A stretch of DNA of 11,357 bases from an uncultured Candidatus Saccharibacteria bacterium (GTDB taxonomy: Bacteria > Patescibacteriota > Saccharimonadia > Saccharimonadales > Saccharimonadaceae): the NCBI GenBank assembly GCA_938046495.1, contig CALIXG010000132.1:1-11357 (forward strand). The letters are read 5' to 3'. Position numbers and translations under genes: made by a program. Below the pieces are notes generated by a model. The model was not told the origin of the DNA. It did no database searches and saw only the letters and a program-made list of their open reading frames with translations. Shown piece after piece: positions 6,827 to 11,279 of this stretch. Numbering within the stretch: the stretch's first letter is position 1; every line of letters starts with the position of its first letter.

Positions 6827-9800
6827 ATGGCTTGGATGGATAATTATATCTCAGCCAGTGACTTCGATTCAATTCGTCTTTGCGTAGCAAGCGCCGAAGA
6901 CATCTTGAGCTGGAGTTATGGTGAAGTATTGAAGCCAGAAACCATCAATTATCGTACTCAGAAACCTGAGCGTGATGGCTTATTCTGTGAGCGTATCTTT
7001 GGTCCAGTCAAGGATATCAACCCACACGATAGCAAACTTAAAGGTGTCCGCTCTCGTGAAGCTGCCGTCGATAAGGAAGGTAACTTGGTTACCAAATCTA
7101 TCGCTCGTCGCGAACGTATGGGCCACATCAAACTCGCTGCACCAGTTGCTCACATCTGGTTCATGCGTGGTACCCCATCTGCTTTAAGCCTTTTGCTTGA
7201 CCTCACCGTCAAGTCAATCGAAAAAGTCGTTTACTTCGCTTCTTACCTTATTATCAGCGCTGATGATGCTAAGATTGAACAAGTTAAAAGCGATTTAATC
7301 GCTCAGCACGATGCCGCAATTCAGGCTATCAAGATTCGTTACTCTGAAGCTGCTAAGGCTGAAGGTGCTAACGCTGAAACCTTGGCTAATGAAGAAGCCA
7401 AAGAACTTGAATCCTTGGATGCCGACTTCTATTCTCGTAAGAATATTCTTGAAGGTTTGAAAAAGGGTGCCGTCATTTCTGAAATTGATTACCGCAACCT
7501 TCCAGAGGAATACGAAGAACTTGTCACCGTTAAGATGGGTGCTCAAGCCATTCGTGAATTACTCGAGGAAATTGACCTCGACGCGATGATCGAAGATCTC
7601 TCTGCTCAGGCTGAAGAGGCTAAAGGTCAAAAGGAACGTAAGCTTATCAAGCGTATCAAATTACTTGAAGGCATGAAGAATTCCAATATCAAGCCAGTGG
7701 ATCTTGTCTTGACGGTTATTCCAGTCATCCCACCAGATCTCCGTCCAATGATTTCACTTCCTGGTGGTCGTTTCGCGACTTCCGATCTTAACGATCTTTA
7801 TCGCCGCGTTATCAACCGTAACAACCGTTTGAAGAAATTGCTCGACCTCAATGCGCCAGAAGTAATTATTCATAACGAAATGCGCATGCTCCAAGAAGCT
7901 GTCGATGCTTTAATTGACAATAACGCCAACCATGGTCGTCAAGCCAGCTCCCAAAATGGTCGCCGTAAACTTAAATCCCTCTCTGATCTTCTTAAAGGTA
8001 AGCAGGGTCGCTTCCGTCAAAACCTTCTTGGTAAGCGTGTCGACTACTCCGGTCGTTCGGTGATCGTCATTGGTCCTGAACTCAAGCTTAATGAATGTGG
8101 TTTGCCAAAACTCATGGCTCTTGAGCTCTTCAAACCTTTCGTAGTTTCTTGGTTACTTTCTCACGAATACGCTGCCAACTCTCGCGCCGCTTCTCGCATG
8201 ATTGACGCCAAAGAATCTGTAGTTTGGGATGCTCTCGACGAAGTTATTCAAGGTCGCTATGTTCTCTTGAACCGTGCTCCGTCTCTTCACCGTCTATCTA
8301 TCCAGGCTTTCCAACCAAAGCTCGTTGACGGTATGGCTCTCAAGCTTCACCCACTCGTAGCTTCCGGCTTTAACGCTGACTACGATGGTGACCAAATGGC
8401 AGTCCACCTTCCTCTCTCTGATGAAGCCCAGCAGGAAGCTAAAACTTTGATGTCGGCTGCCAGTAACCTCTTGAAGCCAGCTGATGGTTCTCCAGTACTT
8501 TCAATCTACCAGGATATCGTACTTGGTGCTTACTACCTCACTTACGATAAGCCAGGCACCGAATCAGAAACCCCACGTGCTTATAGCTCAGTTTTCGAAG
8601 CTGAAATGGCCTACGAAGCTGGTGATATCGCCCTTCAAACTCCGATTCGTGTCTTCGCTAAGAAAGCGATTCGAAATACCACTCTTGGTCGTGTTTTCTT
8701 CAATGAAATCTTGCCAGAAGATTACCCATTTGATAATGGCATTCAAACTTCCAAGCATTTGAAGAAGGTCATGGCCGATACCTTCAATCTTTACGGTGCA
8801 GATGAAACGGTGCGTATTGCTGACGAACTCAAGGCTCTCTCCTTCGAGTACGAAACCATCGCTTCCATCTCGACCTGTAAGGATGACTACCCAACCTACC
8901 CAGAAATCCAAGACTTCATCGCTAAAGGTGACGCCAAGACTGCTCTTATTCAGGATCAGTACAACCAAGGCCTCCTCACCGATGACGAACGTTATTCTTT
9001 GACTGTGGCTAACTGGCGTGAAATCGATACTGAGATTTCTAACTTCCTCAAGGCTAAGCTTGCAACGATGGATACCGACATTGCTGTGATGACCAACTCT
9101 GGCGCTCGTGGTTCTGTCTCTGGTATCAAGATTGCTTCCGCCGAAATCGGTATCATGGTGGATATCTTCAACCGTGAAATCGAGCTTCCAGTTAAGTCCA
9201 GCTATAAGAAGGGTCTTAACACCCTTGAATCCTTCATCGCTACCCGTGGTGCACGTCAAGGTATGGTCTCGACCGCTCTTCGTACTGCCGACTCTGGTTA
9301 CCTCACCCGCCGTCTTGTCGATGTAGCTCAGGATGTCTTTACTGTCGATAAGCCAAATGATGATCCAGGTTTCGAAATTTTCAAATCTGAAACTGAACAC
9401 ACTGGTATTGAATTTGCTCAGCGCATTGCTGGTCGCTTCGCTGCTGAAACCGTCCCAGGTTATGTCGAAGCTGATGAACTCATCACTCGCGAAATTGCCG
9501 AGCAAATTGCTGAAGATGAAAATATCGATTCAATTAAAATTCAATCTGTTCTCACCACCAAGAGTATTAACGGTGTACCTCGTAAGGCTTACGGTGTCGA
9601 CCTAGCCACCCGTAAACTTATTGAACCAAACCAACCAATCGGTGTGATTGCTGCTCAATCTCTCGGTGAACTTGGTACTCAGCTTACCCTCGATACCAAG
9701 CACAGCTCCGGTGTCGCAGGTTCTGGTGCTATCGCTCGTGGTCTCCCTCGTGTGGAAGAGCTTCTCGAAGCCCGTTCACCAAAGGGTCAAGCTTGGATTG

Positions 9801-10763: not shown

Positions 10764-11279
10764 TTACTTTTTTACACCTAAGAAATAGAAGATTTTGTGT
10801 TGGTGTGGTTCTGGAAAGCCCGGATGCCCAGGGTCTTGTATTATTTTAGTTTCAGAGTTAATCACATTAAACTTTGATGTAAGAATTCCTTCAAAATCAA
10901 GCGGCAGGAAAATTTTTTTATCCAGGATATAAGTTAAACATAGAACACCACCACTGTTTAGACAATTAGTCATATCATTAAGGCATCGAGTTGCCGTATC
11001 GTTATCAAAAAATTGCAAAACATTCGTCGCTACCACCAAATCAAACTTCCCCTGAATCTCCCAATCTCTAAGATCAGCCTTAACGGGATGAATCATTTTA
11101 TTATCAATGGCTAACTTTTCAAGCTCTTCAATATTTTGATCCACCGCCAGTACCTCAATTCCTAAATTTGCTAAATAAAGCGAATTTCGTCCAGTCCCGG
11201 CACCATAATCAAGTGCCTGAGATTTTACACAATCTTGCAGAAACTTTGCACCAGCAACAACAATCGGTAATACTTTCAT
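10764..11279 (-). CDS. TehB-like SAM-dependent methyltransferase
   Basis: Encodes a 171-residue class I methyltransferase. Seen: motif I ALDYGAGTGRNSLYLA at 22-37 (D24, glycine loop 26-30), the acidic end of strand 2 in VLAVDQN (D47), the adenine-side acidic residue in VKADLRDW (D69), and the strand-4 segment FDLVVATNVLQFF at 79-91. The GRNSLYLA form and the C-terminal DPGHPGFPEPHQHKIFY segment resemble the TehB/PF03848 group, whose members methylate small thiol- or metalloid-type substrates; the substrate here is not predictable. The protein is short (E. coli TehB is about 197 residues) but looks complete. The start at 11279 has no Shine-Dalgarno sequence and a TATAAT only seven bases upstream, suggesting a leaderless message. 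Convergent with rpoC, divergent from the next gene. Confidence 0.85.
   Translation of the reverse strand: MKVLPIVVAGAKFLQDCVKSQALDYGAGTGRNSLYLANLGIEVLAVDQNIEELEKLAIDNKMIHPVKADLRDWEIQGKFDLVVATNVLQFFDNDTATRCLNDMTNCLNSGGVLCLTYILDKKIFLPLDFEGILTSKFNVINSETKIIQDPGHPGFPEPHQHKIFYFLGVKK

Follow-up and report, generated by a model that had tools for sequence, protein, structure and literature searches.

An Asp933/Lys935 trigger loop in the RNA polymerase of Saccharibacteria, best read as a functional, lineage-fixed variant

Introduction

The Arg of the trigger loop is counted among the catalytic residues of bacterial RNA polymerase. According to passages of earlier mutational work, the cost of R933A is 4-fold for the E. 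coli enzyme and 50-fold for that of Thermus (PMC3325174), and the Taq enzyme, which runs at 100 per second, slows to 0.037 per second with H936A/R933A (PMC3957892). A passage on the closed E. coli complex singles out F935, alongside R425, M932, and H936, at the bound NTP (PMC10716388). We analysed a stretch of DNA of 11,357 bases (the window) from a contig of Saccharibacteria (Patescibacteria/CPR), which encodes a surface protein, rpoB, rpoC, and a methyltransferase. The trigger loop of this rpoC has Asp at position 933 and Lys at position 935 (E. coli numbering). The locus thus raises the question of how a polymerase comes to carry an acidic residue in place of this Arg, and whether the neighbouring Lys has anything to do with it.

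Results

The beta′ subunit of the window matches TIGR02386, the equivalog model of rpoC, over its full length with 1339.8 bits against a cut-off of 963.5, and it contains the catalytic motif NADYDGDQ with the Asp triad D460, D462, and D464 intact, both as expected of a bacterial rpoC. The TehB-like methyltransferase does not reach the curated cut-offs that NCBIfam sets for its TehB models. Residue numbering was verified against rpoC of E. coli K-12. Relative to that protein the trigger loop carries P926L, M932L, R933D, and F935K, with Q929 (Q952 of the window), T931, T934, and H936 unchanged; direct reading and alignment agree on this, bearing out the substitutions and the reversal of charge at 933 that had been described in the first-pass annotation (Table 1). 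The canonical trigger-loop set is therefore represented by Gln929, a Leu at the Met/Leu position 932, and His936, and its basic residue at 933 is replaced by Asp.

Table 1. Features of the window and of the rpoC trigger loop
Feature	Position	Strand	Remark
DUF285/PARCEL (BspA-like) repeat surface protein, 1071 aa	51-3266	+	immediately 5′ of rpoB
rpoB, beta subunit, 1130 aa	3431..6823	+	
rpoC, RNA polymerase beta′ subunit, 1280 aa	6827..10669	+	TIGR02386 match
Lost zinc sites of beta′	7022-7078 and 9356-9589		
Bridge helix	9209..9307	+	H777R, K781Q, D785S (E. coli numbering), Asp at 792
Trigger loop N-terminal helix GELGTQLTLDTKHSSG, beta′ residues 947-962	9665..9712	+	direct reading
Leu949 (E. 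coli P926)	9671..9673	+	9671 is the start given in the first-pass annotation
Leu955 (E. coli M932)	9689..9691	+	L 124, M 71 of 195 rows
Asp956 (E. coli R933)	9692..9694	+	codon GAT; charge reversal
Lys958 (E. coli F935)	9698..9700	+	codon AAG; correlated gain
His959 (E. coli H936)	9701..9703	+	kept in 195/195 rows
TehB-like SAM methyltransferase	10764-11279	-	3′ of rpoC

In alignments of 195 beta′ and 192 beta sequences (rows), Q929, H936, R425, and D460/D462/D464 are invariant in all 195 polymerases, which agrees with the earlier observation that the His and the Gln are retained; N458 is Asn in 194 and R731 is Arg in 183. In beta, K1065, K1073, and R1106 are invariant in the 192 rows, D814 is Asp in 191, and R678 is Arg in 189, and the rpoB of the window retains these five substrate-site residues. 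Beside the conserved Asp814, the Glu813 of E. coli is replaced by Asp in the window, and Asp is found there in 67 of the 192 beta rows. Position 933 of beta′ is R in 75 rows, D in 67, K in 28, N in 24, and Q in 1, and position 935 is F in 110, K in 77, M in 7, and T in 1, proportions that do not mirror nature since the rows were picked partly by motif. R933, which had been called near-universal, is not so in the CPR, where K, N, Q, and D also occur. Eleven comparisons were made of columns changing together with 933/935: beta′ 537 changes to Tyr in eight and 807 to Val in seven, and the bridge-helix residue 779 differs in eight, in mixed directions. Taken as bare counts, these 11 comparisons pointed to no clear partner column for 933/935 in beta and beta′.

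The description of the gene as otherwise highly conserved overlooked the bridge-helix changes and the loss of both zinc sites. The window has P, D, V, and E at C70, C72, C85, and C88, and N, T, P, and A at C814, C888, C895, and C898. Neither site is complete in 103 of the 195 rows, both are complete in 92, and no row has one alone. The 103 zinc-less rows form one clade, crown Saccharibacteria; they lack all four Cys of the first site and keep zero to two of the second. The sites were lost within this lineage, and homology to rpoC is secure. As to the bridge helix, K781Q and D785S are common to the window and the sister LNTFH rows L194 and L234.

The motif is found throughout the relatives of the window. 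TQLTLDTKH is encoded exactly once in each of the 80 relative loci fetched (the best 80 of 366 genome-contig matches), where it is spelled by 70 distinct 27-mers, which indicates a conserved protein trait and not a sequencing error. LDTKH is also present in all 120 homologous proteins among the matches listed and in the 99% identical protein cluster P0001, and each LDTKH genome of a 379-genome Patescibacteria survey had one motif match. With the 80 loci, the 70 spellings, P0001, and the single matches per genome taken together, a sequencing, assembly, or paralogue artefact is ruled out for practical purposes. Of these 80 records, 79 are titled Saccharibacteria and one is titled Alistipes. The latter (L079, JAFSBY010000012.1) is a 5,355-base contig bearing a Saccharibacteria rpoC in an Alistipes MAG whose own trigger loop, LRTFH, is encoded at another place, and it looks like a stray Saccharibacteria contig. 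A nucleotide comparison of the window with the relative L001 gave a dN of 0.149 and a dS of 1.20, and within the clade of the window the D933+K935 pair is invariant despite saturating synonymous change. This purifying selection argues that the polymerase is functional, as the first-pass annotation had supposed.

The wider distribution was surveyed by pattern matching in 379 genomes taken across the phylum Patescibacteria, 291 of which matched a general trigger-loop pattern, chance matches counted in. A Lys935 pattern gave 23 matches, one of them a chance match with an internal stop and the others reading LDTKH (9), LNTKH (4), MNTKH (1), MRTKH (4), LRTKH (3), and LKTKH (1). A pattern for Phe935 with a residue other than Arg at 933 gave 39, namely 26 MKTFH, 4 LKTFH, 6 LNTFH, 2 LDTFH, and 1 MQTFH. 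Within the class Saccharimonadia (294 genomes), four residues occur at position 933: R, K, N, and D. One of the first three was found in 127 genomes, one chance match having been removed (57 LRTFH, 28 LKTFH, 19 LNTFH, 7 MRTMH, 7 MKTFH, 5 MNTKH, and 5 MRTFH, with two in one genome). Asp was found by pattern in 97 (90 LDTKH, 6 LDTFH, and 1 MDTKH). Another 70 had no usable pattern match; 60 of these were searched by protein and 50 had beta′, of which 17 were left unread. All 30 loci from the protein-searched genomes read SLDSKH, and further fetched loci read SLDSKH (G035), KLDSKH (G612), and TLNVFH (G330). Adding the 30 SLDSKH loci to the 97 pattern genomes places D933 in at least 127 of the 294 Saccharimonadia.

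The SLDSKH loci belong to a second large group (L315-L344 and L345-L361) that reads GTQLSLDSKHR, with Ser931, Asp933, Ser934, Lys935, and Arg937; SLDSKH is common to 119 of 120 homologues of L345 among the matches listed. Leu at 926 occurs in the window and in four of the 120 homologous proteins among the matches listed for it, and separately in L349, L358, and L360 of the LDSKH group; P926L, earlier counted among the departures, is a small local change.

Sampling outside the CPR comprised 109 Bacteroidota genomes and five solved-structure sequences. LRTFH was found in 107 of the 109, the other two having no true match, and the sole LDTKH was the Saccharibacteria contig inside the Alistipes-labelled MAG; the five solved-structure sequences are all MRTFH. 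The first-pass annotation had left room for the same motif being common in many phyla; with one other phylum sampled, we found it in several CPR lineages only.

A FastTree phylogeny of RpoB+RpoC (195 rows, residues 922-944 removed) placed the 36-row LDTKH clade of the window next to LDTFH rows (L297/L298, then L299) and then LNTFH rows (L194/L234), with supports of 0.995, 0.999, and 1.0 for the LNTFH > LDTFH > LDTKH nodes. IQ-TREE on 54 rows recovered the same order of steps, with supports of 99, 99, 100, and 100. This order indicates that Asp933 preceded Lys935 in the lineage of the window, for which Lys935 as a precondition of Asp933 is thereby ruled out. Elsewhere the order differs: in L159-L165 Lys came first, from MRTKH to LRTKH/LKTKH with 933 staying R or K, and in other rows Lys is found with Asn and Asp came later (L158 within LNTKH, L301 within MNTKH).

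The D+K pair is seen in the clade of the window, L300/L303, L302, the LDSKH group, L158, and L301; the tree positions of L363 and L364 are unsure. In AU tests on the 54-row set, a single clade was rejected for all D+K rows (p 3.7e-71), for all LDTKH rows (p 2.5e-97), and for the clade of the window with L300/L303 (p 3.6e-5), rejections that would still fit a single origin with later losses. A clade uniting all the D+K rows is thus ruled out. The test did not reject a single clade for LDSKH (p 0.43), and the 10 gains of Lys935 counted by parsimony may therefore be eight or nine. Altogether, F935K was gained about 8-10 times, all but one with N or D at 933.

The two positions are associated. For nine of the 10 parsimony gains of Lys935, position 933 had become Asn or Asp on the branch of the gain or on one before it, a state that takes up 22% of the branch length (binomial p 1.1e-5); counting LDSKH once and dropping L363 left seven of eight (p 1.8e-4). 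Pagel's dependent model was preferred both for non-basic 933 with K935 (LRT 35.6, p 3.6e-7) and for D933 with K935 (LRT 17.6, p 1.4e-3), although the rows were selected by motif and a few large clades can inflate this test. In the fitted model Lys935 is gained about 16 times faster at non-basic 933, and with Lys935 in place a non-basic 933 stays non-basic. Unlike this fit, parsimony has one return to a basic 933 with Lys935 (L167, MRTKH) and one with Met935; it counts no reversion of Lys935 to Phe and one change to Met, and about 34 changes at 933, returns to R or K among them. An independent-pairs test had four pairs only, too few for significance, in which Lys and non-basic 933 occurred together in 1.9 on average and were never opposed (median p 0.5). 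Asp933 stands with Phe935 in seven of the 67 D933 rows (L190/L295, L207, and L296-L299), and compensation is therefore not obligatory. The proposal that Lys958 supplies the lost charge thus gains from the correlated evolution and fails as a precondition, Asp having come before Lys and also occurring alone.

Discussion

Our best reading is that the LDTKH trigger loop is a functional, lineage-fixed variant. We lean towards an ordinary Saccharibacterium polymerase with an inherited trigger loop, in which the Arg would be a dispensable helper and Lys935 would restore or lock the electrostatics. The Arg would assist in stabilizing charge in the transition state and could be spared as long as His936 and the remaining substrate contacts are kept, catalysis would be carried by His936 and the fixed shell of Arg and Lys residues, and Asp933 would be tolerated. 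Lys935 would sit where the closed helix faces the substrate, so that the positive charge may have moved two residues along it, conceivably to contact a phosphate. The role of helper for the Arg and the offset by Lys935 draw on the published mutants and structures and on the evolutionary pattern; an AlphaFold model of residues 401-1060 had a pLDDT of 52, and below 50 in the trigger loop. Counting against compensation by Lys935, yeast F1084K, the equivalent change at 935, is a named loss-of-function mutant in a passage of PMC10069792.

Relaxed constraint would explain the same sequences by a position 933 that tolerates change in CPR bacteria with small genomes and wanders between R, K, N, and D, with K935 as an unrelated neutral change. 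That R, K, N, Q, and D are all found there, and that 933 changes and returns so often, speaks for it. We nevertheless consider it unlikely, though deserving of some weight, given that changes at 933 and 935 are associated, that K935 did not revert to Phe in the reconstruction and went once to Met, that the D+K pair is invariant in the clade of the window while synonymous sites saturate, and that the neighbours 929 and 936 are invariant. Asp933 might instead have taken on a new role with Lys935 as its partner, for instance at the second metal or the pyrophosphate, where it would act as a ligand or relay protons, as could be argued from the repeated evolution of the exact D+K pair in several lineages and the wholesale retention of the remainder of the active site; N, K, and R are still common at 933 in sister lineages, however, which points to tolerance rather than a required carboxylate, and we hold such a role to be highly improbable. 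A broader version, in which Saccharibacteria and several further CPR lineages each converged independently on a second electrostatic solution with Asp933 active (on metal, proton, or pyrophosphate) together with Lys935, is doubtful; if true, it would mean a polymerase in which speed, fidelity, and the use of Mg2+ are balanced differently.

Adaptation to trigger-loop inhibitors (streptolydigin, tagetitoxin, lasso peptides), with the changes altering the drug pocket, appears very unlikely. Saccharibacteria often live on Actinobacteria, producers of such inhibitors, which is a point in its favour. Against it, the window has Asp at E. coli position 792, which we take to be the bridge-helix Asp that streptolydigin needs, and would then be of the sensitive type. 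A passage of PMC10274647 describes a model of an E. coli complex with GreB in which R933 and F935 come near to streptolydigin, but a passage of PMC3957892 states that streptolydigin requires a bridge-helix Asp and that H936, R933, and M932 take no part in its binding. Loss of Gre factors was also considered as an explanation and rejected, a Gre-domain match having been found in 26 of the 26 genomes tried. Among them, one match was present in each of the eight genomes with LDTKH and the six with LDSKH, and G172, G611, G204, G463, and G282 (four of them LNTFH) had two each above the cut-off.

The natural series R, K, N, and D at 933 with Lys at 935 is a ready evolutionary experiment on the function of the Arg, and the natural intermediates LNTF, LDTF, and LDTK allow positional and charge catalysis to be probed. 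Mechanistic models and drugs derived from MRTF enzymes may fail to transfer to Saccharibacteria. In the open-licence PMC literature searched we found no work joining the trigger loop with Saccharibacteria, which does not establish absence in print; PMC11515920 treats the trigger loop, RNA polymerase, and the candidate phyla radiation together, with insertion domains as its topic.

The window can be compared with three known kinds of loop. It shares with the MRTFH/LRTFH loop of E. coli, Thermus, and Bacteroidota the gene, the place, the length of the helix, Q929, T931, T934, H936, and the Asp triad, and differs in having Asp for R933 and Lys for F935. With yeast Pol II and Pol III it shares Leu at 932 and the lack of Arg at 933, where passages of two papers give Asn for Pol II (N1082, PMC3325174) and Lys for Pol III (PMC5127505). 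Leu for Met at 932 is normal (PMC5127505), so that the M932 change, earlier listed as a departure, is ordinary. Yeast, in contrast, retains Phe at 935 (F1084 in Rpb1), no Asp at 933 is named for Pol II or Pol III in those passages of PMC3325174 and PMC5127505, and the CPR states arose on bacterial branches. The LDSKH loop of other Saccharimonadia has the same L932, D933, K935, and H936, but differs by its Ser931, Ser934, and Arg937 and its separate position in the tree. Set beside these systems, the polymerase of the window is an enzyme of known kind with a catalytic-loop variant that is new as far as our searches went.
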